Source: Branchiostoma floridae (lineage: Eukaryota > Chordata > Leptocardii > Amphioxiformes > Branchiostomatidae). Taken from it: a stretch of DNA of 64,000 nt. Shown in pieces: positions 5,111-63,700 of this stretch. The notes under the pieces are model-generated. The model was not told the origin of the DNA. It searched no databases and was given only the letters and a program-made list of their open reading frames with translations. The position numbers and the translations under genes are program-made. Every line of letters begins with the position of its first letter. Position 1 is the first letter of the stretch. The stretch spans positions 33,845,832 to 33,909,831 of the forward strand of contig NC_049981.1 of assembly GCF_000003815.2 (NCBI RefSeq), read 5' to 3'.

Positions 5111-5438
5111 AGTTACAGATTGTTCCTCCTCTACTAGTCTAGAACCCAGGCACCATGCTGCAGCAGTAACAGGTCTCTCCTTCTGTACTAGCCTAGAACC
5201 CAGGCACCATGCTGCAGCAGTAACAGGTCTCTCCTTCTGTACTAGCCTAGAACCCAGACACCAGGCTGCAGCAGTAACAGGTCTCTCCTTCTGTACTAGC
5301 CTAGAACCCAGGCACCATGCTGCAGCAGTAACAGGTCTCTCCTTCTGTACTAGCCTAGAACCCAGGCACCAGGCTGCAACAGTAACAGGTCTCTCCTTCT
5401 GTACTAGCCTAGAACCCAGACACCAGGCTGCAGCAGTA
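5111..5438 (+). repeat. Start-codon/3' splice-site minisatellite, left part (about 54-bp unit, 6 copies)
   Basis: Each unit contains a pyrimidine-rich 3' splice site (ctctccttctgtactag), then 'cctagaacccaggcaccatgctgcagcag' split by small variants, then 'taacag'. The same sequence from the acceptor through ATGCTGCAGCAG occurs once in the real first coding exon (7901-7929), so the array is derived from that exon edge. The array continues at 7287 after the transposon at 5439-7286. Long ORFs on both strands here are artefacts of a unit length divisible by three. Confidence 0.85.
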
Positions 5439-7286
5439 CTCTCACCTCTCAAATAAACGTACCGGTACGTTTATTTTTTTCAGCCTCAAAATCCACCCGG
5501 TACATTCTTATTTTAGACGGTACGTTTATTTATTTTTTCAAATTGGGGCTTTCATTACTAACCTAGGACCCCAAAAATATTGAAATTTTGGGTTTTTCTG
5601 CCGATATTTCCGTGGTATTTTTGCTCAAAATTTACTATTTTGGGGGGAGCTGCCTGACGTGACTTACCAGGTCCCCCAGTACGCACAGGGCGGGTCTCCC
5701 ATGTGGCAAGCCAAGAGTGTCGGCTTTCCGAGGGAGTGTTCTTGTATGACAATCTTTTTCGTGGAACTTGTACAAATACAACTACTAGTACAAATATGTT
5801 TCCTCCTCGTTCTCAACACTTTTTCCTCGTAACTTCCGCGCCTTCCTCCACTTAACAGCATTAGTATAATTTTTATGGAGGCAAAAAATATATAATCAAA
5901 CACTTGTCCCTCAGACACTTGGTACGTTCCGACAGGCCGTGGGAGGCTGTTGAAAGTTCTTCACGATAGCAGATACTTTTGGTCATTTTATCAAAGTAGA
6001 AACTAAACTAACAATATATAATATGAAATATTTTTGAAAAGTTGGAGCACTGTTGCCATCAGATATGTTTATGAGCGTTTGTTACTGTCATTTAATCATC
6101 AGTTATTGTCAGTTCCACCCGATTTCATTCTATGTTTTGGAAAATCCAAATGCCGTCAGCACTCCCCAAAAGTAAACCTGACTGGACAACGCCCCCAAAG
6201 GGGCGGAGTCAAGTCTGTTCAGGCCTTTTAGGACTTTTACCGCCAGCAGGCATGGTGCAGTGGGCGGGGCAGTGTGCATATAAGCCGTGGGAAAGTGTTT
6301 CCCTGCCTCATAGATGAATACATTAAGCCATATTTGGTGTGTATCAGTTTCAAAGCTGGAGTCAAAATTTACAAAGGGCTCAAAGGAACGTGCTTTTTTT
6401 CTATCTTGCGGTAATGCCTGCAGAGGAATCAGCAATACGATATGAATGTAGAGGGAGGTGTAAAATGTTAAATATTTTCTGTGTTCTTTGACTTCTTTCT
6501 CTCACTAAATTTCTAGAATTGATAACAAGAGATGCAGAGAGGAATAGGTGCTGATATTTGTAGCTAGCCTTTACACATTAAAAGCTTCACTTGGTCAGTG
6601 CACTTCTTCTTCCATCGTGTATTTTGGACCATGGGATGTAATAACTACGTGTAGCTCACAGCAAATGGTGAATAGATTACATATGTACAGGTCAAATGTA
6701 TTATTCTCTCTCTCTATATATATATATGACATTTTTCAAGGCCCAATCTAACCAATTACAAAAGTCCAAATATGATAAACATTCTAAGATTATGGCAGTG
6801 TGATGTAGCCATTCTTTTTGAAGTATTACAAAAGTTTTCCATGATCACTTGCTTCAAGTTCCAAGTAGAAAATGTATGTACAAGTATCATGTAAATTTTC
6901 ACAAAATTACGAATACTATAAATCAATCTTATATATTACCTTTTATTACAAAATGGAAAAAAAGATAATATATCGAACAAGATAACTATGGTTATTCTGT
7001 TCATTATATATACAATTAACTGATACGGTACTCAGGCACAAATAAATAAAGAGAACCTACCTACTTATCATATTCTCTTGGACAGAAGTAGCATGGACAT
7101 GTAGTTTACATCGGTATGCCTAAACACCACAAACGAGTGCAAACGAGCAGGCAGACCCAGTTTACATGTCAATTTGGTATTTTTCTGGGGGGTACTTTTA
7201 TTCCAGGGGGTACTTTTATTAGATTTTGAAGATTTGTCCGGGGGGTACTTTTATTCCAGGGGGTACTTCTATTTGAGAGGTGAGAG
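5439..7286. mobile_element. TA-flanked non-autonomous DNA transposon, copy A (1,848 bp)
   Basis: The ends are a perfect 17-bp inverted repeat, CTCTCACCTCTCAAATA, flanked by TA on both sides (5437-5438 and 7287-7288). Joining the flanks gives 'ctgcagcagTAacaggtct', which is exactly the surrounding minisatellite unit, so the boundaries are certain. Subterminal blocks (ggtacgtttatt at the left end, ggggggtacttttattcc at the right end) match those of copy B at 31032-32774 in reverse orientation. No transposase-like ORF is visible. A Tc1/mariner or similar TA-targeting superfamily is inferred from the duplication only. Confidence 0.9.
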
Positions 7287-7900
7287 TAACAGGTCTGTCC
7301 TTCTGTACTAGCCTAGAACCCAGGCACCATGCTGCAGCAGTAACAGGTCTGTCCTTCTGTACTAGCCTAGAACCCAGGCACCATGCTGCAGCAGTAACAG
7401 GTCTCTCCTTCTGTACTAGCCTAGAACCCAGCCACCATGCTGCAGCAGTAACAGGTCTCTCCTACTGTACTAGTCTAGAACCCAGGCACCATGCTGCAGC
7501 AGTAACAGGTTTCCCTGTCCCTAGCCTAGATCCCAGACACCAGGCTGCAGCAGTAACAGGTCTCTCCTTCTGTACTAGTCTAGAACCCAGGCACCATGCT
7601 GCAGCAGTAACAGGTCTCTCCTCTGTACTAGCCTAGAACCCAGGCACCTTACTGCAGCAGTAACAGGTCTCTCCTTCTGTACTAGCCTAGAACCCAGGCA
7701 CCATGCTGCAGCAGTAACAGGTCTCTCCTCCTGTACTAGCCTAGAACCCAGGCACCTTACTGCAGCAGTAACAGGTCTCTCCTTCTGTACTAGCCTAGAA
7801 CCCAGGCACCATGCTGCAGCAGTAACAGGTCTCTCCTCTGTACTAGCCTAGAACCCAGGCACCATGCTGCAGCAGTAACAGGTCTCTCCTTCTGTACTAG
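7287..7900 (+). repeat. Start-codon/3' splice-site minisatellite, right part (about 12 copies)
   Basis: Continuation of the array at 5111-5438. Most units keep 'caccatgctgcagcagtaa', that is the gene's own start codon followed by CTG CAG CAG and then TAA. The last unit runs into the real coding exon, where CAGCAG continues as atcctgaag instead of TAA. Every unit also keeps a usable-looking acceptor (ctgtactag). Confidence 0.85.
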
Positions 7901-7905
7901 TCTAG

Positions 7906-15914
<8,009 letters not shown>

Positions 15915-16016
15915 CTACGTCTTAAAGACATCACATAACATCTTATTTAGTAACAACGTCTTAAAGACATCGCATAACGTCTTATTCAGTAACAACGTCT
16001 TCTCGCCAGCACAATA

Positions 16017-21540: not shown

Positions 21541-24500
21541 TCTGCCCCTGGGGGGAGTTCCAGAACCATCTGATTGGCCGACAGATGGCTGAGCAGGCGC
21601 TCGACGGGGTCGTACCGGGTCAGCGTGCTGAGGGAGCCAATCAGCAGCAGCTTGTGCTTGGCGCGGGTGATTGCCACGTTCAGCCGGCGCCAGTCCTGCA
21701 GGAGCTCACCCAGCTGAGGGGTACAAGGTCATTCAACAAGGTCACTGAACAAGGTCATTCAACAAGGTCATTCAACAAGGTCATTGGACAAGGTCATTGT
21801 ACAAGGTAGGGCTGGGTACCGGTACAGAAAATTCAGGTCCAGGTCCGGTTCAGGTCCAGAGGATTAGGTCCAGGTCCGGACCTGAACCTGGACCTGATGC
21901 AGTATGACCGATACCAATGGTCCATTTCACTACAAAGAAATCTGTTTGGTGGAGAATTAGACTTACACTGGCGTTTTAAAATCCTTCAACGCTAACTGCA
22001 CCTGTACGATTGGCTGTAAAACTTGGTAGAAATTACTATAAACTCTACTCTACTTCACTCTTGTTATTTTCTTCCACCTGGAAGCGCCAAAACGTGTGAA
22101 TGCCTGATAAAATAATCTGTTAATTTTCTAATCGGTCCAACATCCGGTCCACCTAATTTTTTCAGGTCCGGTTTTTCTGGACCGGTCCAATGAGGAAAAC
22201 CGGTTTTGTACCGGTACGCTGTACCGATACCCAGCCCTAGTACAAGGTCATCTGTTCACTGATTAGAGGAGGTTAAAATAAGATCTTATGTCAACCTCCT
22301 TGACGTAAGGTAGCGGACACTGTAAGAAGCGTCAGACCATCTACAAAACGTATACAGTTGCTAAAGTAACTTCTCTACTGTGTCTCTTGTTACCTGGATG
22401 ATTGTGCAGCGGAATGACACCACACCAATAAAATGGAAATGTTTAAACATGTACAGTTAGAAGTACATGTGTGTTGCCCTGTACCTGCCCTCCTGAGTTA
22501 CTTCTGACGAAGGACACCATGATCACACTCTTGTCTCTACCCTGGTATTTATCCACCGTGTTGATCTCCACCCCGGGGTACCCTGGGTTGTTCTCCTCCC
22601 CAGGGCAGCCTGCTCCCTGCAGCAGGTCAGACAGGACCCGGAGCTGTCTTCTGTAGGGAGCGATGATGCCTATATCCTCCTGCAGGCACCCAGCCTGGAC
22701 ACACAGGACAGCTATGTCAAGACTAATAATGTGTAAACAACGACTGGCACCCAGACTGGGTGAATTGGACAGCTACATCAGAAATACTTAACACATTAAC
22801 CGATGGTCAAGTTGAATAAGAAAACTCTTTCTGAGTTGGTTGCAGAGCTGCCTACCTTGACAAGAGCAGATGTGAGCGTCCGAACCAGCTGAGCCTCTGT
22901 CCGGTTACTCAAACCGCCCTGTTCGCTGGTCTCCACTGCCGGTACCTAAAGAGTAGAGACAGTATGCTGTAGTCGAAGTACTGTCAAACTTTGTCAAATG
23001 TTCGATCTGGCGCCATTGAACCTCGACTCCTACCTGATAAAGAGAAAGTCACAGATGACCTTTCATGCTGAGGTTCTCCTGTGTCCAGGGGTGTTTGTTT
23101 GTTTGTTTGTTTGTTTGTTTTCTCACCTTGTCTGTGTCCAGGGGTGTTTGTTTGTTTGTTTTCTCACCTTGTCTGTGTCCAGGAATCTGACAAGTGCGTC
23201 CGGCCTGAGAGCTTCCCGTATCCATGACGACGCCACGCCAAGCCCTGACATCACTTCCTCCAGCTGTGCCCAGGCGGGAAGGTCGAGCCGTGCTGTCGCG
23301 ACCTTGTCGGAGCCGCAGCGAAGCTTCCCATCATACATCAGGGTGTTGCTGAGGTCCATGATGTCAGAGTTCATGCGGTACTGCACGTTCAGCGTCGCTG
23401 TCGCACTCTGTGGGGAACAATTCACGTTATAGTCTGTTTTTATATCATACCTGGTCCGTATTTACGTTCGACACCGGTGTTCAGACCGGTCCGGATTTTA
23501 CCTTTTTCAAATTTTTGACAGCAACACACTCAAGCGAGTTTTGAATCGTTTGAATCAAACTATGGAGCTCCAGTCTGTACTGCAAAACACAGACCGGTTG
23601 GAACTTTATTGTTTTTTATATCTAGCTGATGATGACCCCACACAGGTAAGCTGTGTCCTTACCTGATGATGACCCCCTAGGAAACCTGTGTTCTTACCTG
23701 ATGATGTCCCATCTTCTTAAAGAGACTCTCGTCCATGCCCATCCTGCGGGCCGTACCACTCTGCACCAGGGGGGGCAGCTGCTGGTGGTCCCCGACGAGC
23801 ACGAACCTCCCCGCGTGCACCAGCGGCCCCAGGCACACCGGCTGGGCAATCTGAGACGCTTCGTCCACGATACACACGTCAAACTTACGCCGTGAGAACA
23901 GCGCGTGTTTGGCGCCCAGGCACGTGGTCGCAACTACCGGCTGGGGAAGAAGGCAGGGAGCATAGAATGTAATTTACAAGATGACAAGTCATGCAATGGG
24001 AACTGTCAGTAAACCATGATCACTGAGAAAAAGATACACACTTTCTTTTCCATCAGAAAACTCTACATATCCGAAATCTAGTTATTGTGTGTATGTCCCA
24101 ATTATATTGTCTGTTTCTGTATGTGCTCAGGGACACCTGAAAAGCAGACTGTAGCCTTAGTGTAGTATTACCCTGGTAAAATAAAAGATGATGATGATGA
24201 TCTGTAAATGGGAACAACAAAAAAGAGGCAAACAACTTGCACCTTGTCCATGTAGAGCTTGTCCAGCTCGGCCACGGAGGTCAGTCCTCGGGTCAGCTGG
24301 TCGTCGGTGTGGGGCGCCACGCCCGGGTGGACTCGGGAGGCACTGCCCAGCCGCAGGAAATCAACCTGGGAAACATGGAGATGCAATGTTACATGTCAGA
24401 CAGTTTCCTCTTAAGCTATTGCAAGAGGCTAAAATCTTCTGATTGTATAGTCTGAGGCCACAGAATTTCCAGGCAAGGATCTAAGAGAGCCAAACAGCTG

Positions 24501-27500
24501 GGTTTTGAGACGAACCACTGTCCAAAGAATGCCCTGATCATAGGACAATCACACAACCTCTGTTGTCCAGCTCTATCTGGCCGCAGATTGAAGAGTATCT
24601 CTCAGATGACTTTTCCTCCCAGCTGCCTATTCAGGAGCGCTACAGAAGCACAAAAACTTTCTTTACCCTCCTGCTGTGAAATCTATGTCCCTGTAAAAAT
24701 AAGTGAGCTTACAGTATCATCTGGGTATGAGATCTACTCTTACCTTGTAGTTGGTGAGTTTGAGCAGCACGTTGTCGACAGCAGAGTTGGTGTAGAGTTG
24801 GGGTTATAGGGTAAAGGTTAGGGTCAGGTTTTGACCTTGTAGTTGGTGAGTTTGAGCAGCACGTTGTCGACAGCAGAGTTGGTGTAGAGTTGGGGTTATA
24901 GGGTAAAGGTTAGGGTTAGGTTCTGACCTTGTACTTGGTGAGTTTGAGCAGCACGTTGTCGACAGCAGAGTTGGTGTAGAGTTGGGGTTATAGGGTAAAG
25001 GTTGGGGTTAGGTTCTGACCTTGTACTTGGTGAGTTTGAGCAGCACGTTATCGACAGCGGAGTTGGTGTAGAGTTGGGGTTATAGGGTAAAGGTTAGGGT
25101 TAGGTTCTGACCTTGTACTTGGTGAGTTTGAGCAGCACGTTGTCGACAGCAGAGTTGGTGTAGCTAGCCAATCAACACATGGCCTGTTTCTGCAGCTGGT
25201 TCCATCCTGGAGAAAATAAACAAACAAACAAACAATATAAACAACTCAACCTAAACCAGGACCTTCTAAATCGCTTGCTTCTGCGGCTGGTTCAGACCTG
25301 AAACCACCAAGCTGTTTGGTACCAGACATGTAATGGTTATGAGGAGAAGGGAGAAGGTTTCAACTGAAATCTGCTTAAACAACCACACATCCCTTGATAC
25401 AGAATGAGATGGGAATCAAACCCTGCACCTTTGAGCTCAAAACTGACATCTGCTAAAACAGCTACACATCATTTGGGCCAGATGGGAATCAAACACTGCA
25501 CCTTTAAGCTTAAACCTGATATATTGTTTGTCATGAAGTCCAGGAAGATAAGTGGCGTGCCATAGGGCACTTCACGAATGAATTTTCAAGTCTGCTCAAA
25601 CAGCTGCACATCATTTGGGCCAAATGGGAATAAAACCCTGCACCTTTGTGATTAAACCTGACACTTGCTCAAACAGCTATCATTTGGATATGATGGGAAT
25701 CAAATCCTGCACCTTTGAGTATCCTGGCGATGGTATCCCTTGCGCCGGCTGGACACATGTCGGAGACTCTTGTGTGGAAGCGAGGCTCGCGCTGTTCCAC
25801 GATCAGCTCCCGGAGTCGCTCGGCTGTTGCGGTTTTCCCCATCAGACGGGCGAGGTTCGCCAGGCTGGTCGCCGTGGAAACGTACCCGTCCTTTTTGTCG
25901 ATGGTGAAGACGGTGTCTGCAGGGAACTTGGACAGGTCCCTGGGGGGAGTTTAATGTAAAGGATGTTTTGCAAACCTTCACATTTCTGCAAACTGTGATT
26001 GATATGACTGAAACTGCTCTGTCAAACTACACAGTAGTTTAACTGTTTATACCATCACTACAATTTAAATACTTGATTCAAATTTATACGAGACAATACA
26101 GTATGCTGCACCTGGCAGCAAGATGCTGATGTTGTGCAGCATACTACAATTTCAACATGATACCTAAAAAATTGCGGGATGCTGGCGAGAATTTAAGAAA
26201 TCACTACAAGATTTGTAATTTTTGATTTGAATTCATTCTAAAAATCAGGAACCCCATAAATGTAAGATTCTGACCTGTCGACTCTGACAGACAGAGTTTC
26301 CTCTGCCAGTTCGGTGAGAAATCCGGAGCACATCGCCACCATGTTCCTGTCCTCCACACTGACCAGGATGTAGTCATCCACGCACAGTCGCAGGGACTGG
26401 GCAGGCTGGGAGCTGTGGGATGGAGGGAGGGAGAGAATGGCTGTAGAACGAGTACAGACATGTCATCCACACACAGGGACTGGGAGCTGTAGGATGGAGG
26501 GAGGGAGAGAGAGAATGGCTGTAGAACGAGTACAGACATGTCATCCACACACAGGGACTGGGAGCTGTGGGATGGAGGGAGAGAGAGAACGGCTGTAGAA
26601 CGAGTACAGACATGTCATCCACACACAGGGACTGGGAGCTGTGGGGAGGGAGGGAGGGAGAGAATGGCTGTAGAACGAGTACAGACATGTCATCCACACA
26701 CAGGGACTGGGAGCTGTGGGATGGAGGGAGAGAGAGAACGGCTGTAGAACGAGTACAGACATGTCATCCACACACAGGGACTGGGAGCTGTGGGGAGGGA
26801 GGGAGTGGGAGAAGGGCTTTAGAACGAGTACAGACATGTCATCCACACACAGGGACTGGGAGCTGTGGGATGGAGGGAGGGAGAGAATGGCTGTAGAACG
26901 AGTACAGACATGTCATCCACACACAGGGACTGGGAGCTGTGGGATGGAGGGAGAGAGAGAAGGGATTTAGAACGAGTACAGACCAAAGATGCACAAACCA
27001 ACAGTTGTACAGGTGTGTTCTCACCTGGTTGTCAGGTGTTTCCTCCTGAAGGTACAGGTGAAGTCTCCGTCCACACCTGGCTCACACCTGGCCAGCTCCA
27101 GCCCGTGGGCACAGTCTCCGCTCTTCTCCCTGAACAGGAATAAGTCTTAGTACAGGAATAAGTCTTAGTACAGGAATAATTCTTAGTACAGGAATAAGTC
27201 TTAGTACAGGAATAATTCTTAGTACAGGAATAAGTCTTAGTACAGGAATGAGTCTTAGTACAGGAATAAGTCTTAGTACAGGAATAAGTCTTAGTACAGG
27301 AATAATTCTAAGTACAGGAATAAGTCTTAGTACAGGAATAATTCTTAGTACAGGAATAAGTCTTAGTACAGGAATAAGTCTTAGTACAGGAATAATTCTT
27401 AGTACAGGAATAAGTCTTAGTACAGGAATAAGTCTTAGTACAGGAATAATTCTAAGTACAGGAATAAGTCTTAGTACAGGAATAAGTCTTAGTACAGGAA

Positions 27501-38686: not shown

Positions 38687-41600
38687 ATGGCGACAGAAGC
38701 GAAGAAAGCTCGTCTGAACCGGATCAAAAGGGTCGCTGTGGAGGGGAATATCGGTATAGGACGGCTGTTTCTACTCTGTGTGACGTGTGACTGTGTCAAG
38801 CACATTGCTGTGTAGTTAGAACTCTTACCGACGGCTTAAAATGGTCAATAAGTCTAGGTTTCGGTCAGCTGTCTTTCATTTTCGCGCTGTTTGCTTTGTT
38901 TACCTCCGGATTTTTTGAGTAGAGTTTCCGATTGTCTGTCCTTGCTACATGCCCTCTCGCTGTCTTCATATATTTGAACGAAAAGAAATCTCATCGCTTT
39001 TTAGCACTATTTGAACAATAAACGCCCATGATTATTCACCTCAATGCCAAACAACTATCAGGCCGCCCCCCTCCCACCTTCTCCAGGAAAGTAGATGAAG
39101 GTACTACGGTAGCAGAGGATTTCTGTAGTGAAGGGCCACAGGGTGACTGGCTTTGACGGGCAAAAAAATATAGTAGAGTGCACTTTAGGAATACCGAAAT
39201 CGGATATGTTTCAAGAACGGATATGTTTGAGTTTAGGGTAACCGTTACAAGCCTCAAAATATTTTTTTTAAATCCTGTCTGCGTATTGCCTTATTTATGA
39301 AATCGCAAGCCCCACATCTGCACAACCTCCTACCTTTCCTGGTAACATGTAGAAATCTATGACCATATGATGATGTACCAATATCACACTGCTGTGCTGA
39401 CATCCCTTCATCCTTGATGCTACGGCCGCGTGGCGCGTTGGTACACCCGATCCCTCGATCTCGGAAGTTAAGCAACGCGCGGTCCGGATAGTGCTTGGAT
39501 GGGGGACCAACCAAGGACGTCCGGATTGCTGTAGCCTCACGAAGTTTTCCACGAAATCGTCTTCCGGGAGGGACGTAAAACGGGGGTCCCGTGCTCGAGG
39601 AGGTGCCTCGACCACGTTAAACAGCCTCATTACTCATACTTTGGGTACCTACTGGCTGGCAAAATACACCAGATGATTATTGATGCTGATTTCTCCCGTG
39701 TGTTTCCCCAGCGGTGGGGAAGTCGACCTTCATCTCCCTGCTAGAGGAGGAGTCTTCTGATTGGGCGATCGTCGGCGAGCCGCTGTCCCGCTGGCAGAAC
39801 GTGCAGTGCCACAGCGAGAGGGACGAGGTGGGTTACAGGGTCGGGGTTCTAGTCCCGCTGGCAGTGCAGGGTCAGAGGTAAAGGGTCGGGGTTCTAGTCC
39901 TGCTGGCAGTGCAGGGTCAGAGTTACAGGGTCGGGGTTCTAGTCCCGCTGGCAGTGCAGGGTCAGAGGTAAAGGGTCGGGGTTCTAGTCCTGCTGGCAGT
40001 GCAGGGTCAGAGTTACAGGGACGGGGTTCTAGTCCCGCTGGCAGTGCAGGGTCAGAGGTAAAGGGTCGGGGTTCTAGTCCTGCTGGCAGTGCAGGCTCAG
40101 AGTTACAGGGTCGGGGTTCTAGTCCCGCTGGCAGTGCAGGGTCAGAGGTAAAGGGTCGGGGTTCTAGTCCTGCTGGCAGTGCAGGGTCGGAGTTAGAGGG
40201 GCGGGGTTCTAGTCCCGTCAGCAGTGCAGGGTCAGAGGTATAGGGTCGAGGTTCTAGTCGGGTTGGCAGTGCAGGGTCAGAGTTATAGGGTCGGGGTCAT
40301 AGTCGGGTCGGCAGTGCAGGGTCAGAGTTAAAGGGTCGGGGTCCTAGTCGGGTCGGCAGTGCAGGGTCAGAGTTCTAGGGTCGCGGTCAGAGCAGGGTCG
40401 GCAGTGCAGGGTCGGGGTTCTAGTCCTGCTGGCAGTGCAGGGTCAGAGTTACAGGGTCGGGGTTCTAGTCCCGCTGGCAGTGCAGGGTCAGAGGTGAAGG
40501 GTCGGGGTTCTAGTCTCGCTGGCATTGCAGGGTCAGAGTTACAGGGTCGGGGTTCTAGTCCCGCTGGCAGTGCAGGGTCAGAGGTAAAGGGTCGGGGTTC
40601 TAGTCCTGCTGGCAGTGCCATGTCAGAGTTACAGGGTCGGGGTTCTAGTCCCGCTGGCAGTGCAGGGTCAGAGGTAAAGGGTCGGGTTCTAGTCCCGCTG
40701 GCACTGCAGGGTCAGAATTACAGGGTTGGGGTTCTAGTCCCGCTGGCAGTGCAGGGTCAGAGGTAAAGGGTCGGGTTCTAGTCCCGCTGGCACTGCAGGG
40801 TCAGAATTACAGGGTCAGGGTTCTAGTCCCGCTGGCAGTGCAGGGTCAGAATTACAGGGTCGGGGTTCTAGTCCCGCTGGCAGTGCAGGGTCAGAGGTGA
40901 AGGGTCGGAGTTCTAGTCCCGCTGGCACTGCAGGGTCAGAATTACAGGGTCGGGGTTCTAGTCCCGCTGGCAGTGCAGGGTCAGAGGTAAAGGGTCAGGG
41001 TTCTAGTCCCGCTGGCAGTGCAGGGTCAGAGGTAAAGGGTCGGGGTTCTAGTCCTGTTGGCAGTGCAGGGTCAGAGTTACAGGGTCGGGGTTCTAGTCCC
41101 GCTGGCTGTGCCATGTCAGAGTTACAGGGTCGGGGCTCTAGTCCCGCTGGCAGTGCAGGGTCAGAGGTAAAGGGTCAGGGTTCTAGTCCCGCTGGCAGTG
41201 CAGGGTCAGAGGTAAAGGGTCGGGGTTCTAGTCCTGTTGGCAGTGCAGGGTCAGAATTACAGGGTCGGGGTTCTAGTCCCGCTGGCAGTGCAGGGTCAGA
41301 ATTACAGGGTCGGGGTTCTAGTCCCGCTGGCAGTGCAGGGTCAGAGGTAAAGGGTCAGGGTTCTAGTCCCGCTGGCAGTGCAGGGTCAGAGGTAAAGGGT
41401 CGGGGTTCTAGTCCTGCTGGCAGTGCAGTGTCAGAGGTAATAGGTCAGGGATCTAGTTCTGCTGGCAGTGCAGGGTCAGAGGTAAAGGGTCGAGGTTCTA
41501 GTCCCGCTGGCAGTGCAGGGTCAGAGGTAAAGGGTCGGGGTTGTAGTCCCACTGGCATTGTAGGGTCAGAGATAAAGGATCGGGTTCTAATCTTGCTGGC

Positions 41601-44221
41601 AGAATCTGCAGTGTCTGTGTTAAAATGTTTTCTCCGTTTACAGGAAATCACCCTGTCCCAGAAGCACGGAGGGAACCTGCTGGACATGTTCTACTCCGAC
41701 CCTCGCCGCTGGGCGTTCACTTTCCAGTCATACGTCTGCCTGAGCCGTATGAGGCACCAGCTCAAACCGGCACCGGGCCACCTCGAAACTGCCGCCGAAC
41801 CCGTCGTCTTCTATGAGCGCTCCGTCTACAGTGACAGGTGAGGACACACCTGCCAAGAAACAAATATGAAAGTATTTTCTATGGTTTAAACCTTTGTTAT
41901 ACAACACCATGTATGCACATGTGCCCAAAGTTTCACCCTATAGCACATTAACAACACACTCCTGTACCCATCAGGTACTGTTTTGCTGCCAACTGTTTTT
42001 CTCTGGGCACGTTTAACGAGACGGAGTGGAACATCTACTGTGACTGGCACTCCACCATGATGGCCGCCATGGGCGAGCTGAAACTGGACGGGATCATCTA
42101 CCTCAGGGCTGAGCCAGAGGTGAGGGGTCAGAGGTTATAGGTTATGGGTCAGGGTGGAACATCTACTGTGACTGGCACTCCACCATGATGGCCGCCATGG
42201 GCGAGCTGAAACTGGACGGGATCATCTACCTCAGGACTGAGCCAGAGGTGAAGGGTCAGGGGTTTAAGGTTATGGGTTGGGGGTTATAGGTCAGGGGTCA
42301 GAGTGAAACATCTACTGTGATTGGCACTCTATCATGACGGCTGCATCATGATAGAGTCAGCTGAAACTGGATTGGGTCATGTACCTCAGGGCTGAGCCAG
42401 AGGTTAGGGGTTATAGGTCAGGAAGGGGTGATAGGTCAGGGTTATAGTTGAGGGGTCAGGAAGGATTCTTGGCAAGTTGAGAAGAGGTGGTAGTTTCCTG
42501 TTGACTAACCTCCTTATCGTCCGTACAGGTGTGTCTGGAGAGACTTAAGCTGCGAGGTCGGCCTGAGGTGAGAATCCCTCCTGTCTGCCATTCTCTGTTC
42601 TTCTGTGTTTGTTACTGTTATTTGAGAATGTTCAGCCATTCATATTTATGTCAGCATAAAATGTCAGTAAGTTCAATCTAAATGTTCCTATTCCTGCTTC
42701 ATGTTCCTGCTACAGGAGCGTCCTGTCTCTGTACTGTTACCATACTGTTCCTGTTCTACTATTCCCTGTTATAGGAGCGTCCTGTCTCTGTACTGTTACC
42801 ATACTGTTCCTGTTCTACTATTCCCTGTTATAGGAGCGTCCTGTCTCTGTACTGTTACCATACTGTTCCTGTTCTACTATTCCCTGTTATAGGAGCGTCC
42901 TGTCTCTGTACTGTTACCATACTGTTCCTGTTCTACTATTCCCTGTTATAGGAGCGTCCTGTCTCTGTACTGTTACCATACTGTTCCTGTTCTACTATTC
43001 CCTGTTATAGGAGCGTCCTGTCTCTGTACTGTTACCATACTGTTCCTGTTCTACTATTCCCTGTTATAGGAGCGTCCTGTCTCTGTACTGTTACCATACT
43101 GTTCCTGTTCTACTATTCCCTGTTATAGGAGCGTCCTGTCTCTGTACTGTTACCATACTGTTCCTGTTCTACTATTCCCTGTTATAGGAGCGTCCTGTCT
43201 CCCTGGAGTATCTGGATCAGATCCACACCCGACACGAGTCCTGGCTGGTGCATAAGGAGATCAGGTGGGAAACCTGAACCACAGTGCTGTATGTTGTACT
43301 ACTGGTGGGGAAACCCTAATCACAATGCTGTATTTAGTCATGCTACTGCAGCAGAGTTAACCCTTTCCCGGCTGCCTTACATGGTAACAAGTACAGATGT
43401 GGTGCTAAACAGCAGCCTTAGCAGGGTAAAGACTAGGCATTTTGTACGCAATGAAGTTTCTGCAGTCATGCTGAATAGTTTTTATCTGCTGCAGTGTTTC
43501 AGACAGTCTCAAGGGGGCGCCGATCCTGACCATGGACTGTAACCTGAGTTTCCAGGAAGACACAGACAAACAGAACGACATGATGTCACAGGTGGGTCAA
43601 CAACAGGTTTACATTCTGTAGCGTTGTCTAGATCTGACTTTTACAATAAAGAATGAGAAAAACCTGAAAAACATGCCATGGACCTGAACATGATCTGCTG
43701 GACAGGTAAAATATTTGATAGAAACTAAAATGTATAAATGAAATGACAGTTCAAGAAAGAGGCTAAAGATATAAACTTGTACACATCTTTTGTTTGGGCC
43801 CTGTACAGGACATGTAAACAACACTGTGTGCCATTCCTACGTCATGTACAGGAAACATGAACAACACTGTTACCAATAGTCCGCTTACGTTTTCCTACCT
43901 GTACCATTCATATGTCCCATAGCTGACATCCACCGCTAACTGTTGGTAGGAAGGACATCAGACTTGTCTACACAACAAAGCGTTTCCTACACAACAAAGC
44001 GTTTCCTACACAACAAAGCGTTTCCTACACAACAAAGCGTTTCCTACACAGCAAAGCGTTTCCTACACAACAAAGCGTTTCCTACACAACAAAGCGTTTC
44101 CTACACAACAAAGCGTTTCCTACACAACAAAGCGTTTCATCGTCATGACTGTTTCTAACTCTGACCCGAGCCTCCATGTTTGTCCCCTCTCCAGGTGAAG
44201 GCCTTTGTTGCAGGGCTGTAG
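38687..44221 (+). CDS. DCK: Deoxynucleoside kinase (dCK/dGK family), complete
   Basis: Eight exons join in frame: 38687-38753, 39712-39827, 41644-41837, 41975-42119, 42529-42567, 43188-43264, 43495-43591, 44195-44221. They give 253 codons, compared with 260 in human dCK. The phosphate-binding loop is GNIAVGKST, split by intron 1. Other family marks are [11 protein letters not shown] (substrate glutamate), [11 protein letters not shown], the ERSVYSDRY catalytic/base-binding motif, [11 protein letters not shown], the [19 protein letters not shown] lid and a C-terminal VKAFVAGL as in dCK. It phosphorylates deoxynucleosides in the salvage pathway, making dNMPs. No mitochondrial presequence is evident ([14 protein letters not shown]), which favours a cytosolic or nuclear dCK-like enzyme, but invertebrate members are not one-to-one with human ones. 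It is transcribed head to head with DNA2. Confidence 0.92.
39422..39679 (+). mobile_element. 5S rRNA-headed SINE with 8-bp target duplication
   Basis: The head (to about 39536) aligns with 5S rRNA: 'ctacggcc', 'gatctcggaagttaagca', 'tagtgcttggatggggga' (box C) and the closing 'tgctgtagcc'. It continues into a non-5S body, 'cgggagggacgtaaaacggg' and 'cctcgaccacgttaaacagc'. TTGATGCT flanks it at 39414-39421 and 39680-39687. The duplication and the body argue for a SINE3-type element using the 5S internal promoter, not a 5S gene. It lies in intron 1 of the kinase. Confidence 0.72.
39828..41600 (+). repeat. Donor-edge array of kinase exon 2 (about 40 copies, 39-42-bp units)
   Basis: The unit is 'gggtcggggttctagtcccg' then 'ctggcagtgcagggtcagag' then gtaaa or ttaca. 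Exon 2 itself contains 'tcccgctggcag' and 'gtgcag' before its donor 'gacgag|gtgggttacagggtc'. The array is therefore seeded from this junction, and many units keep a donor-like 'agag|gtaaag'. It is the largest array in the window (1.77 kb). ORFs of up to 314 codons across it are artefacts of unit lengths divisible by three. Confidence 0.85.
42120..42415 (+). repeat. Two extra copies of the 3' part of kinase exon 4 with donor
   Basis: About 95 bp, from 'ggaacatctactgtgactgg' to 'ctgagccagag|gtgagggg', is repeated nearly perfectly at 42152-42250 and in a worn form at 42303-42405 (a single-base change gives 'tgattggcactctatcatg'). Confidence 0.85.
42695..43187 (+). repeat. 59-bp acceptor-edge array of kinase exon 6 (8 copies)
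   Basis: Each unit is 'gagcgtcctgtctctgtact', then 'gttaccatactgttcctgtt', then 'ctactattccctgttatag'. The first 14 bases are the start of exon 6 and the end is its acceptor. Copies are virtually identical, so there are eight complete acceptors in a row. The true exon starts at 43188, where the sequence turns from 'tctctg' to 'tctccc'. A 59-bp unit means use of any upstream acceptor would shift frame. Confidence 0.92.
43970..44140 (+). repeat. 19-bp minisatellite (tttcctacacaacaaagcg), 9 copies
   Basis: Near-perfect repeat in the last kinase intron, ending about 55 bp before exon 8. No exon-derived part was recognised, so it is an exception to the junction pattern. Confidence 0.9.
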
Positions 44222-49648: not shown

Positions 49649-52600
49649 TCAGCTTGTCTTCTTGTCGTGATTGACAGGCCGTTTCTGCAGGTAGGCCCTG
49701 TAATAGAAGTTGCTGAAGAGAGCGACCATGCTGAGTCCGTACGCGATCCCGTAGATACAGAACCCATGGTACAGGTATCCCAGGGTGCTGTGCACCAGGC
49801 CGATAAAAAATTGCACGATCTGGAGAAAAGCGATGAAAAGGGTAAAACATGTCTCAAAGCAGTTTCTGTTCATTGAAAGGCTGCTCTTCCACTATTCCTG
49901 ACACAAAAGACAGACAATATGCAGAAGGTTTGAATCCTAGGGTATCTAATAGTCTAGCCTATTCTATGCAATAATGTACAAAGGCAGTCCGGTGTCCATC
50001 TGAAGTGGACCCGCTATAAGTGTCCACTTGTGGCTTTCCGAGAAGCGCTGGTCATTACTGAATTCAAAACTCAAATGAATAATACATACATCCGTTTACA
50101 CGTTAAACGGGAATTCCTACATCTATTTTGAATGACAAAGTACAATAATGAACAGTGCAGCCATTTTAAGGGCTGTGACCCTTTCCAGTTGCATGCTGGG
50201 TGAGAATTCAAACTCTCGCCCTTTGGGACCAAGGGCAGGGTCACCTTCCACTGGACCACAGACCCGAAATGGACACCTTGGTAACCTACCTGTAGCTCTG
50301 TGACCCTGCATTTCCATGGTAACCTACCTGTAGCTCTGTGACCCTACGTTTCCATGGTAACCTACCTGTAGCTCTGTGACCCTGCGTTTCCATGGTAACC
50401 TACCTGTAGCTCTGTGACCCTGCATTGCCATGGTAACCTACCTGTAGCTCTGTTACCCTGTGTTTCCATGGTAACCTACCTGTAGCTCTGTGACCCTGCG
50501 TTTCCACGGTAACGGCTTGTCGGGGAAGGCGGCGGACAGCCCGTAGTAGAGGTAGAGAAAGACGTGCACGAGGGAGTTGAGCCCGAGGGGGACGGCCATG
50601 GCCGCCCAGGGGTAGTGGTGGTAGCAGAAGTCCGACAGGAGGAGGATGGAGGCGTGGTGGTACACGTGGAGGAACGACATCTGTCTCCGTCTGTGCCGTA
50701 ATACCTGCGGGAAGCACAACACTGTCGGTTACTGTCAGTTACTGTCAGTGCTGTTACTACAGTAGTGTCAGTCCGACAGGAGCAGGATGGAGGCGTGGTG
50801 GTACACATGGAGGAACGACATCTGTCGCCTTCTGTGCCGTAACACCTGCAGGGAGCACAACACTGTCAGTTACTGTCAGTTACTGTTAGTACTGTTCCAT
50901 ACTGCCAGTACTGCTGTTACAGTAGGGTCAGTCTGACTGGAGCAGGATGGAGGTGTGATGGTACACATGGAGAAACGACATCTGTCTCCGTCTGTGCCGT
51001 AACACCTGCAGAGAACACATTACTACTCTCCATACCTTAAACCTTGAGCGGGGACATCTACGTGATACAGACAAAATCAAGCAATTTCTCTAACAAATCA
51101 GACATTTTAGCAGCCACCATCTTTCATCAGTTCCTGATAAAGTCAGTGGATGCTAAATGTCCTCCCTAAGCACTGAGCCAAGAACAGCGGAGTGATACCC
51201 ACCATGAAGATGGTATCCCAGAGTTCCAGGTTCTTGGTGACCCAGTAGAGCAGGAAGACGTGCTTGAGGGCGTTGACCTCGCCCTTGTGAAACCAGGACG
51301 GGCTGACGGACACGCCGTACGCAAACGCCGCGAAACTGTACAGGCTGAGGGCGCTGCACAGCAGGTTATACACCACCAGGGTCTGTAGGGATCAATAACC
51401 AATAACCAATAATCAATAACTAATCATCAATAACCAATAATCAATAACCACAAACTGTACAGGCTGAGGGCGCTGCACAGTAGGTTATACACCACCAGGG
51501 TCTGTAGGGATCAATAATTAATAACCAATAATCAATAACTAATCATCAATAACCACAAACTGTACAGGCTGAGGGCACTGCACAGCAGGTTATACACCAC
51601 CAGGGTCTGTAGGGATCAATAACCAATAACTAATAATCAATAATCAATAATCAATAACCACAAACTGTACAGGCTGAGGGTGCTGCACAGCAGGTTATAC
51701 ACCACCAGGGTCTGTAGGGATCAATAACCAATAACTAATAATCAATAACCAATAATCAATAACCACAAACTGTACAGGCTGAGGGCGCTGCACAGCAGGT
51801 TATACACCACCAGGGTCTGTAGGGATCAATAATTAATAACCAATAATCAATAACTAATCATCAATAACCAATAATCAATAACCACTAACTGTACAGGCTG
51901 AGGGCGCTGCACAGCAGGTTATACACCACCAGGGTCTGTAGGGATCAGTAATCAATAACTAATCATCAATAACCAATAATCAATAACTAATCATCAATAA
52001 CTAATAATCAATAACCACAAACTGTACAGGCTGAGGGTGCTGCACAGCAGGTTATACACCACTAGGGTCTGTAGGGATCAATAACCAATAATCAATAACT
52101 AATAATCAATAACCACAAACTGTACAGGCTGAGGGCGCTGCACAGCAGGTTATACACCACCAGGGTCTGTAGGGATCAATAATCAATGATCAATAATCAA
52201 TAACCAATAATCAATAACCAATAATCAATAACCACAAACTGTACAGGCTGAGGGCGCTGCACAGCAGGTTATACACCACCAGGGTCTGTAGGGATCAATA
52301 ATCAATAACCAATAATCAATAACTAATAATCAATAATCAGGAAACTGTCGAGAGAAAGCACAGAGAAAACACAATGTCAGCGTCGCACATTAATCAGTCT
52401 ACAGAACACAAGGTTGAAGGAAGGGCTGGTGACTGAATATCCCCAAAACTTGGAGGAAAAGGGAGAAAACAGAATTGATAATCAATAATCAAAGATATAA
52501 GAGAATTGTCCTAATGATGATTATGCAAATATCGGAGATTGGTTCCGCGTGCTGAACTGACCTTGCGGAGCGACCTTGGCTTGGTGCTTCTCTGCCAGCC

Positions 52601-55779: not shown

Positions 55780-55900
55780 ATCCGTGACGTCATACCCGGA
55801 AGTAAAACTCTCCCGGTCAAAGTTCGCACCGCGGGGCATGCCGGGAGCCGGATGGCCACGTCACGCGCATGCGCCAGGAAGGCGGTCCGGCTTTCTGCAG
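55780..55900 (+). promoter_or_regulatory. Core promoter of USO1, separated from its ATG by an insertion
   Basis: CpG-rich sequence with a CRE-like 'gtgacgtcat' (55784-55793), an ETS-like 'ccggaagta' (55796-55804) and a perfect NRF1-type GCGCATGCGC (55865-55874). These are typical of TATA-less housekeeping promoters. The following sequence is the 1.78-kb insertion, and the native leader resumes at 57681. Assignment to USO1 is by position and orientation. A divergent role for the elongase gene 3 kb away is possible. Confidence 0.5.
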
Positions 55901-57680: not shown

Positions 57681-57722
57681 TGCAGTTTTGGACTAAAAAA
57701 CACCAAAAATCGGGCATAAATC

Positions 57723-60700
57723 ATGAATTACCTGAAGAATTTCCTGGCGACTCAGCCGGGCACGCAGCCGACTGGAGCCGAGACGGTAGGAAAAGTTTGG
57801 CGGCGCCTGTAGACCCGGAGTCCCGCCTGGCTTCGGACGCAGGATGGTGGTTTTTTGATGAGGGGGGAGGGGGGTAAATATGGACGTGTGGCAAAACATG
57901 ACAGCTGGGAAGTTTGATGTTGACATGGGGAAAAATTCCGGTAGGCGTTCTGTGGGACGTGCTGGTGTGGGAAAGTGGGAACAGCTCATTAGGAAATGGG
58001 AATAATCTGATAATCCTTGGTGCAGTCTGTGGGGCAGGTGGTTTCAGGTGCCACATGGACAGGTGTGTAATAATTACAGGTGTGTAACGGTGCTGTAGCC
58101 ACACCTGTTACAGAGAAACAACAACCTTACCTGAACTGTCTAGAGTGCAAGAGTGGTGGGATTATTGTAAACCAACTTTCAGCACTGACAGAATTTTTCA
58201 GACAGGACATTTAGATGAAAATTTAAAGCACAGCTGTTCAAGGGAAGAAGGTACTTCCTGGTTGACATGTCTTCAGGTTTACTCGACTTTTGTTACATTA
58301 TTTCTAACCACCCCCCACCCCCCCAGATCGAGCGGCTGTGTGACCGAGTCCAGTCATCCACACTTCTGGACGACAGGAGAGACGCAGTCCGAGCCCTCAA
58401 GGCGCTGTCCAAGGTGCGTCACACTCATCTGGTTTATCGCCTGTTGTTATCGACATACGATGATAAACCTGCTCAACATTCTTCTCATTATCATTGTTAC
58501 ATATAGTACTTTAATGTCCAAGCAGAGCGTTTACGACGGAAATAAAGAGAAATGTTTATTTGGTTTTTAGTCCTAGCAATGGTCTTAGCGAACGGTCCCT
58601 CAGATGCAGAGGGACGGGCAGTACTAATTCGTAATAGACCGGCTGGAAGCCAACTAGAGAGCAGTCATTCCTGACCCGGTTTCAAACTAGAGCGGCCACG
58701 GAAAACCCGCCCACCCACAGCCTGAAATAACTAACGTAGCAGTTACCATTGTATATATATTACTTCTCCTGTGGAGAAATATTTTACATAACGTTATACA
58801 TGTCATAACAGAATTAATGATGACATTGACAGAAGCACATTCTTCCAACAACTGCTCACCTGCTGAGAATGAATGATTGTTGCACATTGTTGCTACACTG
58901 GGCTAACATGTTGAACAGATACAAAGTAAAACTAACTATAAAAAGTATAAGATAAACAGCGAAAAGCGAAGTTAAAAGTGCATGAATTAAACTTCTTTTC
59001 ACTACAGACGTACAGTACAGATGAAAGAATAGACCTACATATAATGTGAAATTTAGTGCTGCTAACATGGTACCCAGGAGATTTAGAACTGGCTCTGCTC
59101 AGAAGAAGAAGGGTTGAGTTTTTTCTGTAGCACCCCGCTGATGTGCCTGTAACACAATGACTTTACGTCAGTAACCCTGTCCTGTTTGTTGTGTGGTTCT
59201 GCAGAAATTCCGTCTGGAGGTGGGAACCCAGGGCATGGACATCCTCATCAACGTGCTGGAGACAGACAGGTGTGTGTGTGTTTGTCTGTGTGTATGTGTG
59301 TGTGCATCTGTGTGTGTGTGTGTGTTTGTGTCTGTGTACATGTGTGTGTGTACATGTTCATGTGTGTGTGTGTCTGTGTGTGTGTGTGTGCATCTGTGTG
59401 TGAGTGTGCATCTGTGTGTGTGTGTGTGTGTGCATCTGTGTGTGAGTGTGTCTGTGTGTATGTGTGTGTGCATCTGTGTGTGTGTGTGTGTGCCTGTGTT
59501 TGTGTCTGTGTACCTGTGTGTGTGTGTGTGTGTGTACATGTTCATGTGTGTGTGTGTCAGTGTGTGTGCCTGCATGTGTGTGAGACAGAGAGAGAGAGTT
59601 TAGCTAATAGAGTATATGCTATGTTAGCATGTGTCTATGGGAGTAAGTACTAGTAAGCATGCAGTCTGGAATTGCCAGGCATAATCGCTGTGACTTTCAG
59701 TTCTTGATTCTGGCGAATAGTGTTTTTATTTATCTGTTTTTTTTGTATTTAAGTCTGAGTCTGTAATTTTTTCCTGAAGACGGACGGAAAGATAGTGAAC
59801 ACGCTGTTGAAACAGTGTTATTTATGTATTTATTTGTTTGTTTGTATTTACTCAGGACGGATGGAGAGATAGTGAACTATGCACTGGATATGTTGTTGCA
59901 ATGGTGTTGTTATTTATTTATTTGTTTGTTTGTATTTACTCAGGACGGACGGAGAGATAGTGAACTATGCACTGGACACGATGAACAACATCATGTGTAA
60001 CAACCCCGAGGACGATGATGATGAAGGTCAGTGCAAGGTCGCGGCTGTGTTAGAACACTCTTCCCAGTGCTGTAGAGGGCAGAACAAAGGTCAAAGTTGA
60101 TATGAAATCCTCCTAGGTACTGATGCTGTATCAGCAGTCGTGGTGACAGAAAACAGAGACTGGAATGTCTGAAGTTCTAAACTTTGATAATCTAGGCTAC
60201 ATTTGTACAAAGACTCTTATCTTGACATTACTCTCAATTTGATAATGCAACTGTCATGGAAGGCCTACAATCCTATCATACAGCCTTTTCAAACTCTAAA
60301 TTTCTATACCCCTTGTTCTGACCACTTCCATGTTCTAACCCCCCTATACTGCCCTCCCCCCCCCCCCAACCACACGTGTCCTGTTTTAACCACCTGTCGT
60401 ACCCCCTGTTCTTCCAGACATCCCCCAGACGAACGGGGAGGTTCGGCAGGAGCCAGAGGATCTGGGGGGACAGTTAACCCCTGTTCTGACCCCCCTGCTC
60501 TACCCCCCTGCTCTAACCCCCCCTGTTCTAACCCCCTATTCCTCCCTCTGTTCCAGACATCCCCCAGACGAACGGGGAGGTTCGGCAGGAGCCGGAGGAC
60601 CTGGGAGGACAGTTTACCGAGATCTTCATCAAGAAACTTGAGAACGTCCAACTTCTTCTCAACTTCCTAGAGGTGAGGCTCAGTGTCCGCCCTGCTGTAT

Positions 60701-63700
60701 GGGTCAGGGGTCAGCAGCTTCAGCTGATATTGCCGGGTGGTCCACTTTTGTTGCCATTTTGTGGTTGATTTCTCAGTAACTCCAATAGAGAAACCCTGCT
60801 ACGGAGCTATTGGTCCTGTCACAGTGGTGGCCTGGCTTCTGACTGGAGGCGGTGGGTTAGCCAAGTTTGAAGGCACATGTACTGTAATTTCTATGCTGTG
60901 TTTCATCCAGGTGTGTTCATGCCTGCCAGGAATGAAACATGCAGGTGTGTCCCCACCTGCCAGGTATGTTCCATCCAGGTGTGTGCCCACCTGCCGGGTA
61001 TGCTCCATCCAGGTGTGTTCCCACCTGCCAGGTGTGTTCCATCTAGGTGTGTTCGTGCCTGCCAGGTATGAAACATCCAGGTGTGTTCCCACCTGCTAGG
61101 TATGCTCCATCCAGGTGTGTTCCCACCTGCCAGGTGTGTTCCGTCCAGGTGTGCCCCCAGCTGCCAGGTGTGTTCCTACCTGATGTTGTGTTCTCCGTGT
61201 GTCCGCAGGAGTACGACTTCCGTGTGCGCTGGCCGACGGTGAAGCTCATGACGACCCTGCTGTGTAACAGGTGCAGCCAGATGCAGCAGATCATCCTCAA
61301 CAGCCCTGTGGGTGGGTATCTGGTTCACTTAACAAACAAACAAACAAACAAACAAACTTCACCATTGTGTGGGTGGGTATCATGAGCTGTAACAGGTGCT
61401 GTAACAGGTGCTGTAACAGATGCTGTAACAGGTGCTGTAACAGGTGCTTACATGTGGGTGGGTATCTGTGCTGTAACATGGGCTGTAACAGGTGCAGCCA
61501 GATGCAGCAGATCATCCTCAACAGCCCTCTGGGTGGGTATCTGTGCTGTAACAGGTGCTGTAACATGTGGGTGGGTATCATGTGCTGTAACATGGGCTGT
61601 AACAGATGCAGCAGATCATCCTCAACAGTCCTGTGGGTGGGTATCGGGTTCACTTCTCAACAGCCCTTTGGGTGGGTATCGGGTTCACTTCTCAACAGTC
61701 CTGTGGGTGGGTATCGGGTTCACTTCTCAACAGCCCTGTGGGTGGGTATCGGGTTCACTTCTCAACAGCCCTGTGGGTGGGTATCGGGTTCACTTCTCAA
61801 CAGCCCTGTGGGTGGGTATCGGGTTCACTCCTCAACAGCCCTTTGGGTGGGTATCGGGTTCACTTCTCAACAGTCCTGTGGGTGGGTATCGGGTTCACTC
61901 CTCAACAGTCCTGTGGGTGGGTATCGGGTTCACTCCTCAACAGCCCTGTGGGTGGGTATCGGGTTCACTCCTCAACAGCCCTTTGGGTGGGTATCGTGTG
62001 CTTTGATATGTGTTGTAATAATTGCTGTAACATGTGCTGTACACAGCTTTAACAGGTGTAGAGTAGGCAAAAGGGTGGTGTAAGTAGCTGACAGAAACTT
62101 AGTCGCCTGATGATGATGAAGTATCTGACAGCAGGGGTTGTGCACATGTTCAACAGTATCACACAGCTGTGTCAGTTGACAGTAGCATCCATCATACATC
62201 ACCTGCTGACGGGTGTTCATCATGCCTCACCTGACATGTTTCTCCCCTCTCACCTGCTCAGGTGTGTCTAGACTGATGGACCTGATCTCCGACGCTCGCG
62301 AGGTCATCAGGAATGATGTGAGTAATGTGCAGTAGCACTCAGTTCTGTAACAGGGTCTTTAGATGTGCTGTCCCCTTCCCAGTCTATTTCTTCATATTAC
62401 TTGTGCTATGTATGACACCTACCCACGTGGGAAGGAGGAACCCTTTACATCCTTGGTCGGAAGTCCTCCTAGGAGGCGGATACTCCGAAGAACAAAGCTG
62501 TATGACACCTACATGTGTCTTCACTGTGAAGTAGAATACAGAAATATCAGCTTGATACAATAATGTGTATAAAAACTATATTGTGGATAGTGTACAAAGA
62601 ACTCTGTTATCTACAAGTCATTTTGAACACTACCAACTGTAAACTAAAACTAGTCAGTAAGGTTACAGAAATATCAGCTCAGTATAAAGACTATATAGCA
62701 GGCTCTGTTACTTACAAGTCATTTTGACATCCCATTTAGGGCCTGCTGCTGCTGATCCAGCTCACCAAGGGGAACGCTGCCATCCAGAAGATCGTCGCGT
62801 TTGAGAACGCCTTCGAGCGACTCCTCGAGATCATCGTGGAGGAGGGCCACAGTGATGGAGGTGGGCGGGTGTTTGTGTTACTATGGAAACCTGTGGTTTT
62901 TGTTTATTGTTGTAGGAACTGTTGTTGGAGATTTATTTCTGCAGGAATTATTTATTTTTTATTTTTGTTTATTTCTGCAGTAAATGTTGTTGAATATTGT
63001 TTATTGTTTATTTTTGCAGGAATTGTTGTTGAAGATTGCTTATTTATTTTCTGCTGATATTGTTCTTGATGATTGCTTATTTACATTTTGCAGGAATTGT
63101 TGTTGAAGATTATTTATTTTTACATGAATTGTTGTTGAAGTTTGTTTATTTGTTTTGCAGGAATTGTTGTTGAAGATTGTTTATTACTGATGATGAACCT
63201 GCTGAAGAACAACAACTCCAACCAGACACTGTTTAAGGAGGGAGGGTAGGTCCAACTTCACAACATTCTGTGCTTTAATAAGAGATGTTAACTAATTAAT
63301 GATTTAGTGATGAAATAAGGCATAACGCCTTCCTACATCTCAAGAGCCCCATTCATCTTGCTGCTGATCTGCAGAAAAACTGGATGTATTCTTGGAAATC
63401 TTTTGGTTTGAATCTGTCTAGATCCAGGTTTCTTCATAGCCATCATATAAACTTCCATTGTAAGGGGTTTATCCACACCTACATGTACACATGTACAAAG
63501 CGGCTGCCGTGTTGTGTTCCTCCTCAGTCTGATCCAGAAGCTGACGCTGTTTTGTAACATCACACAATTTTGGTGAGGTTTGTATTTGTTATGTTTTCAG
63601 GGACACTGGAAGGCCCCAGAACTAATTATGATTTATTGATGGGTTTTGTCCCCAGTCTGATCCAGAAGCTGACGCCGTTTTTCGACATCACGGAGGCGAG

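Follow-up and report, generated by a model that had tools for sequence, protein, structure and literature searches.

Tandem arrays spanning exon-intron boundaries in five neighbouring genes near a contig end of Branchiostoma floridae

Splice junctions are among the most constrained sites of a gene, yet more than a quarter of those modelled in a 64,000-nucleotide stretch of the amphioxus Branchiostoma floridae (here referred to as the window) are tandemly copied with their signals mostly intact. What places so many tandem arrays at the edges of exons? The window (RefSeq assembly GCF_000003815.2, contig NC_049981.1, our contig C3, positions 33845832-33909831) lies on a contig of 34,247,348 bases whose end is ~340 kb beyond the window end, in a searched assembly of 513.4 Mb and 431 contigs. 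An original prediction, made from the sequence alone, had described about thirty private minisatellites there, each grown from one splice junction of the neighbouring exon. Setting exon ends from GT/AG signals and phase, we modelled five neighbouring genes with 49 exons and 91 junctions (46 acceptors and 45 donors): an SH2D4-like gene (8 exons), a DNA2-like gene (21 exons), a deoxynucleoside kinase gene (7 exons), an ELOVL-like gene (4 exons), and USO1/p115 (9 exons, continuing past the window).

Tandem repeats were detected in two ways. Tandem Repeats Finder (TRF) returned 131 rows for the window, and a second detector, which reports ungapped tandem self-matches with a score of at least 20 and found zero matches in two Markov controls, returned 51 arrays covering 16,855 bases. 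We counted a junction as spanned if one repeated segment contained at least 5 exon and at least 5 intron bases. By tandem self-match, 25 of the 91 junctions are spanned; boundaries on both sides are affected, with donors (11/45) and acceptors (14/46) spanned at about equal rates. The case at DNA2 exon 15 is uncertain, with only 6 intron bases in an array upstream of the donor used, and leaving out this uncertain exon gives 24 of 90. The junction arrays in the window are real. All 25 spanned junctions fall within the 31 intervals originally listed, while six of those intervals proved to be weak, rearranged, or without exon bases. The repeat at 27130-27520 is an 18-mer that stops short of the exon, an exon copy is absent from 8483-8945, the array at 9316-9425 begins at the donor and contains zero exon bases, and 59270-59590 is a (GT)n tract that also begins at the donor. 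Neither of the remaining two is a clean spanning array: 11932-12130 holds a single weak copy (score of 13, versus a best of 11 among 20 shuffles), and 39828-41600 is probably exon derived but rearranged (exon-only score of 43.5, versus a best of 39.5 among 200 shuffles). For the listed interval 63520-63575, the actual junction is 80 bases further, at 63656.

An excess of arrays at junctions over background, which had been put forward as a check on the original prediction, is present in this window by rotation, by constrained placement, and by comparison with the background rate. The weakest of the window tests is the rotation of array masks within introns, which gave 25 spanned junctions against 17.5 expected (P = 0.00045); because its arrays may wrap onto exons, this null overstates the expectation. 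When placement was constrained such that any overlap with an exon stayed shorter than one unit, a junction was spanned by 24 of 36 array-intron entries, compared to 10.8 +- 2.3 expected, and five more came within 10 bp. These 36 entries count one array twice, once for each of two introns, and leave out that of SH2D4 exon 1 for lack of a modelled upstream exon. Placement of TRF arrays alone yielded 17 of 37 spanning, compared to 8.5 expected (P = 3.6e-4); the corresponding counts were 17/37 with a 3-base requirement (P = 0.0016) and 15/31 with an 8-base requirement (P = 4.4e-4). Finally, the background rate taken from 12 non-genic and 12 intron-interior arrays predicts 1.83 spanned junctions among the 91, 13.6-fold fewer than the 25 seen, a rough figure given that one of the non-genic arrays (5108-5438) belongs to the split SH2D4 junction array and that background units are mostly small. 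Arrays occur at 0.47 per kb in non-genic DNA and 0.74 per kb in intron interiors of the window, rates indicating that the genic excess lies mostly at junctions.

The units themselves vary widely. The smallest junction-spanning spacing ranges from 32 to 237 bp when measured by script, and units range from 32 to 175 bp when partly set by hand. Exon bases per unit, which had been given as 7 to 95, number 5 to 94 in the 24 sure cases (7 to 94 when hand-set), and the exon share of the unit averages 0.42 by script (Kolmogorov-Smirnov test against uniform, P = 0.11) and 0.48 by hand (P = 0.06). Spacings are divisible by three at chance level (7/25 by script and 8/25 hand-set), giving no sign of coding copies. 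For the splice signals, we examined 116 copies that span a junction, drawn from 23 of the 25 junctions and aligned gap-free over 7 bases on each side. Donor copies keep GT in 54 of 54 cases, and acceptor copies keep the A of AG in 61 of 62 and the G in 59 of 62; a looser count, from 23 of 30 junctions checked, put conservation at 104 of 107 dinucleotides. We rejected selection on decoy sites as the reason, since neighbouring positions are nearly as well kept as GT and AG. With the copies removed, the reading frames stay open and align to known proteins, which is consistent with normal splicing, and nothing that we found in the copies suggested a function for them.

The description of the arrays as private, and not as a spreading satellite, was borne out within the window and by a genome search with one array. 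The full unit of the ELOVL exon B array was present only at its own locus among 22 matches, the others covering 39-58 bases with E values of 8e-10 or weaker. Two absolute statements attached to that description needed loosening. Units had been said to derive always from the adjacent exon; in a comparison of 26 arrays with 49 exons, 20 matching pairs were adjacent and 2 were not (the split SH2D4 array and one 18-base match). Arrays had also been said to share no sequence, but BLAST matches link 11 of the 325 array pairs, one of them the split SH2D4 array and most of the others pairs of arrays that carry (TTTG)n tracts. A 7-mer survey of 47 arrays revealed no common motif, the heptamer AGGGTCA occurring in 7 of the 47 compared to 1.6 expected. 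Tracts of (TTTG)n lie inside 5 of 26 junction-array intervals (at 8304, 14577-15480, 23094, 59833, and 61333) and inside a junction array in L005, one of the stretches sampled elsewhere in the genome (L005 2892-3616). As a general cause (TTTG)n was rejected, it being also the commonest tetranucleotide in the sampled genome stretches.

Arrays of this kind have a name in amphioxus. In the accessible part of PMC3087553, boundary-spanning minisatellites termed "mirages" are described for the globins BflGb6 and BflGb9, with haplotypes of 6 and 3 units and a mechanism called unclear, and Adh3 (Canestro et al. 2002) and other loci are cited; the accessible part of PMC3902484 adds PGBD5 mirages and cites troponin C. 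The amphioxus Adh case that had been mentioned in the original prediction is thus in print, cited as mirages in both papers. To the extent that these texts describe them, mirages resemble the arrays in the window in that the unit crosses a 5' or 3' boundary, AG or GT is present in many copies, each array is private, and regular splicing is thought to be unaffected. Published units measure ~10-160 bp, and a few of ours (32-237 bp) lie above that range. Whereas the cases described in these texts are single genes or loci, the window contains 25 spanned junctions in five neighbouring genes, with background statistics and a chromosome-end effect. We conclude that the arrays are new members of the amphioxus mirages and that their density, the background statistics, and the end gradient are new as far as our literature search shows; this search, which covered boundary and subtelomeric minisatellites, mirages, and Branchiostoma repeats and had most subscription journals outside it, found no genome-wide mirage survey or chromosome-end bias. 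The Rogers model of intron gain through tandem duplication of AG/GT exon segments, as discussed in the accessible part of PMC3087553, likewise involves tandem duplication with splice signals, but here the duplications lie inside existing introns and no new intron is shown.

The density in the window had been taken to suggest a genome-wide phenomenon. The sample taken elsewhere comprised 191 kb of N-free sequence in 20 internal stretches and another 68 kb in 8 stretches situated ~340 kb from contig ends, which we took as chromosome ends; exons were predicted with a finder that was trained on the window and recovered 37 of the 49 window exons exactly. In this automatic pipeline, 4 of 98 predicted junctions were spanned in internal stretches, 3 of 26 near ends, and 20 of 81 in the window's first 60 kb, fractions that are approximate given the noise in exon prediction and a training set that favours the window; the same training bias applies to the difference between internal stretches and the window's first 60 kb (Fisher P = 9e-5). 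Junction arrays are therefore rarer elsewhere, and the window density is not the genome average. On direct reading, clear cases outside the window are a 58-bp donor array (L024), an acceptor array in a UDPGT gene (also L024), a 144-bp donor array (L005), and an acceptor array with ~188-bp spacing in an XRCC6/Ku70-like gene (L009). Genes that we take to be DMXL-like (L005) and GMCL-like (L024) both carry junction arrays. A gene fragment in L013, presumably cadherin-like, had 13 predicted exons and zero junction arrays. Array density rises toward contig ends: for units of at least 10 bp it is 0.17 per kb internally, 0.46 near ends, and 0.72 in the window, the end stretches being 2.7 times denser than the internal ones (8 versus 20 stretches; Mann-Whitney P = 0.001). 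For all units, the values are 0.25, 0.54, and 0.78 per kb, respectively. A search of the genome with two DNA probes showed no second haplotype.

We favour, with a probability of roughly 0.6, the reading that these arrays are boundary mirages produced by DNA-level duplication seeded around junctions, expanded in the manner of minisatellites, and tolerated in introns. Each unit contains contiguous exon-intron DNA, which points to a copying event at the level of DNA (or of unspliced RNA). The series of events would begin with what the arrays display, a contiguous segment of exon edge, splice site, and intron that is duplicated in tandem, its additional copies lying in the intron; such segments are commoner at junctions than the background array rate predicts, as is seen in the window and weakly elsewhere. 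The first duplication may be a local accident to the DNA around a junction of a transcribed gene (a break, slippage, or a stalled fork), after which slippage or unequal exchange would expand the array, more so near chromosome ends. Selection would then remove copies that alter exons and tolerate those in introns, the inner sites becoming decoys that bear GT or AG; tolerance would follow if the spliceosome uses the outermost site. More tentatively, and to our minds doubtfully, one may picture a germline process that makes small tandem duplications centred on the junctions of transcribed genes, strongest near chromosome ends, by which introns would continually receive copies of splice sites, a reservoir from which new splice sites and introns could arise.

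Several results weigh against seeding at junctions. Outside the window the excess is small, at 4/98 junctions against 1.6 expected in internal stretches (2.5-fold, P = 0.08), 3/26 against 1.3 near ends (2.3-fold, P = 0.14), and 7/124 against 3.1 when pooled (2.3-fold, P = 0.04), and 10 kb more beside L005 contributed three predicted exons and zero spanned junctions. Within the window, the rotation test gives only 25 against 17.5, the 13.6-fold figure hinges on the mostly small units of the background arrays, and the junction occupies no fixed place within the unit, which argues against a cut at the splice site. Base-level coverage also runs the other way, with 27% of junctions covered compared to 40% for the average intron base. 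This last measure is in our view misleading, as arrays that have expanded take up intron space but are barred from exons, and we prefer array-level placement.

Some of these points suit another account, in which ordinary minisatellites arise at one rate everywhere, those inside exons are purged, those overlapping an edge survive, and the window is rich in arrays through its proximity to an end. The classical subtelomeric minisatellites of vertebrates are tandem units of tens of base pairs with private sequence and are denser near chromosome ends, and the arrays here are also denser near contig ends (0.46 versus 0.17 per kb for units of at least 10 bp). The junction excess of just 2.3-fold elsewhere (P = 0.04), the variable position of the junction within units, and the coverage of 40% versus 27% are all in keeping with such an account. 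What separates the arrays from subtelomeric minisatellites is their excess at exon-intron boundaries: placement that respects exons predicts 10.8 rather than 24 spanning entries, TRF arrays alone 8.5 rather than 17, and the local background 1.8 rather than 25, and the genic excess lies mostly at junctions (0.74 per kb in intron interiors and 0.47 in non-genic DNA). We regard a single uniform rate as possible but rather unlikely.

Somewhat less likely still is that exonic DNA is itself prone to duplication, copies within exons being purged unless in frame and tolerated and those straddling an edge surviving. Exons are not immune to tandem duplication, as DNA2 exons 3-4 contain three exon-internal arrays with units of 24, 18, and 42 bp, all divisible by 3; these are the only three exon-internal cases. 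If the rate rose linearly with exon share, the mean share would be 0.67, compared to the 0.42 seen by script and the 0.48 hand-set (P = 1e-4); without DNA2 exon 15 the share is 0.40, and 0 of 20000 simulations were as low.

The original prediction had also offered R-loops and RNA-templated duplication as possible causes, and R-loops or RNA-templated repair at splice sites would fit the joining of exon and intron in each unit, as in pre-mRNA, and the slightly positive pooled sense GC skew of intronic array DNA (0.077, versus 0.009 in other intron DNA). Taken array by array, however, 16 of the 34 segments have a positive and 17 a negative sense skew, so that the sense strand is not consistently G rich, which argues against a simple R-loop cause. 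Zero arrays contained spliced exon-exon or distant-exon sequence, as spliced RNA would supply, although unspliced RNA could have served as a template. We judge such an origin improbable.

Two artefacts stand lowest. Copy pairs that include one constrained exon copy might diverge half as fast and stay visible longer, and each junction array does include a coding, hence probably conserved, copy; this explanation is largely refuted, since with TRF young arrays (at least 90% match and at least 2.5 copies; 7/11 spanning versus 2.4 expected, P = 5.4e-4) show no weaker an excess than those below 90% match (7/22 versus 3.3, P = 0.025; 4 of the 37 fall in neither class). Collapse or expansion of haplotypes at repeats during assembly is equally implausible, despite N gaps in several sampled stretches and copy numbers that differ between assemblies according to the accessible part of PMC3902484, as each array matches its own exon, one has copies on either side of a transposon-like insert, the window contains zero N, and that same text reports PGBD5 repeats re-examined in Sanger and Illumina data with the sequence confirmed.

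The arrays offer a natural test of how the spliceosome chooses the outermost among many near-identical sites; they might also supply new introns, and they could help to find out what breaks DNA at the edges of exons. Together, the end gradient and the background rates turn a single-gene anecdote into a testable hypothesis at the scale of the genome. The positions of the arrays are collected in Table 1.

Table 1. Arrays at exon-intron junctions of the window, with two further arrays that were not counted (last two rows). Positions are those of the window.
Gene and junction	Array	Position	Strand
SH2D4-like exon 1 acceptor	54 bp unit, 24 exon bases; split by transposon-like insert ~5440-7285	5108..7929	+
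SH2D4-like exon 2 acceptor	~92 bp	8200..8390	+
SH2D4-like exon 5 acceptor	two junction copies, 175 bp spacing, GAAT microsatellite between	12119..12688	+
SH2D4-like exon 7 donor	~81 bp unit	14524..15533	+
DNA2 exon 18 donor	41 bp	23079..23183	-
DNA2 exon 17 donor	~35 bp	23644..23710	-
DNA2 exon 15	92 bp unit with presumed 52-base exon and donor; uncertain exon model	24738..25163	-
DNA2 exon 14 donor	decayed, missed by TRF	25362..25719	-
DNA2 exon 13 acceptor	74 bp	26406..26998	-
DNA2 exon 11 donor	39 bp, 29 exon bases	27647..28260	-
DNA2 exon 9 donor	duplication, 166 bp, 73 exon bases	29184..29538	-
DNA2 exon 8/9 intron	acceptor array (41 bp) and donor array (32 bp), from opposite ends	29595..30200	-
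DNA2 exon 7 acceptor	spacings 41-45 and 132 bp; adjoins transposon-like insert ~31031-32775	30664..31030	-
DNA2 exon 2 acceptor	TRF 38-45 bp; best junction copy 237 bp off	36908..37180	-
Deoxynucleoside kinase exon 4 donor	128 bp, 94 exon bases	42024..42418	+
Deoxynucleoside kinase exon 6 acceptor	59 bp, 99% match	42706..43201	+
ELOVL-like exon C donor	38 bp	50276..50513	-
ELOVL-like exon C acceptor	141 bp, 76 exon bases	50629..51024	-
ELOVL-like exon B acceptor	~105 bp, 50 exon bases	51333..52339	-
USO1 exon c acceptor	~88 bp	59741..59983	+
USO1 exon d acceptor	duplication, 139 bp, 62 exon bases	60412..60618	+
USO1 exon e donor	35 bp units; 49-exon-base copy 221 bp off	61263..61999	+
USO1 exon h acceptor	~35-37 bp	62894..63185	+
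USO1 exon i acceptor	duplication, 128 bp, 36 exon bases	63521..63691	+
Deoxynucleoside kinase exon 2 donor side	45 bp array, probably exon-derived, rearranged; not counted spanning	39832..41584	+
DNA2 exon 12 (end 27129)	18 bp intron array, stops 4 bases short of exon; zero exon bases; not counted	27134..27514	-

The gene models rest on open frames and similarity to known proteins. Spliced frames are open in all modelled exons except DNA2 exon 15, whose model is uncertain (DNA2 exons 1-14 and 16-21 are open). Pfam domains identified in the window genes are SH2, Dna2, Dna2 rift, dNK, and ELO, and the USO1 product gives only an ELMO_ARM match below the cut-off. Sequence matches in the PDB include p115 (E = 1.8e-110), DNA2 (E = 2.5e-142, with exons 5-14 as the query), deoxycytidine kinase (E = 3e-83), and ELOVL7 (E = 1.6e-19), and the alignments continue through those junctions that they cover. 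The name SH2D4 is our assumption from the SH2 domain. With the one pattern tried, the Walker A segment of the DNA2-like gene was not found in the window; its expected place, 24738-25712, adjoins a junction array, and its absence may reflect a deletion, assembly loss, or a pseudogene. The exon-internal arrays in DNA2 exons 3-4 are located at 34399-35028 and 36417-36496.

Two related inserts, at 5440-7285 and 31031-32775, match at 85% over 203 bases at one end and 69% over 358 bases at the other. As read at their ends, they have terminal inverted repeats of 25-26 bp and TA target duplications, and they probably belong to one DNA transposon family. One insert splits a junction array, and the other adjoins a second junction array. 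Outside the modelled genes, a 19-bp array with 9 copies and 98% match lies at 43968-44138. Among the internal stretches sampled elsewhere, L015 (430-2679 and 3114-4030) and L020 (194-3447) contain kilobase-scale arrays of short units, with best offsets of 43 and 60, away from predicted exons.

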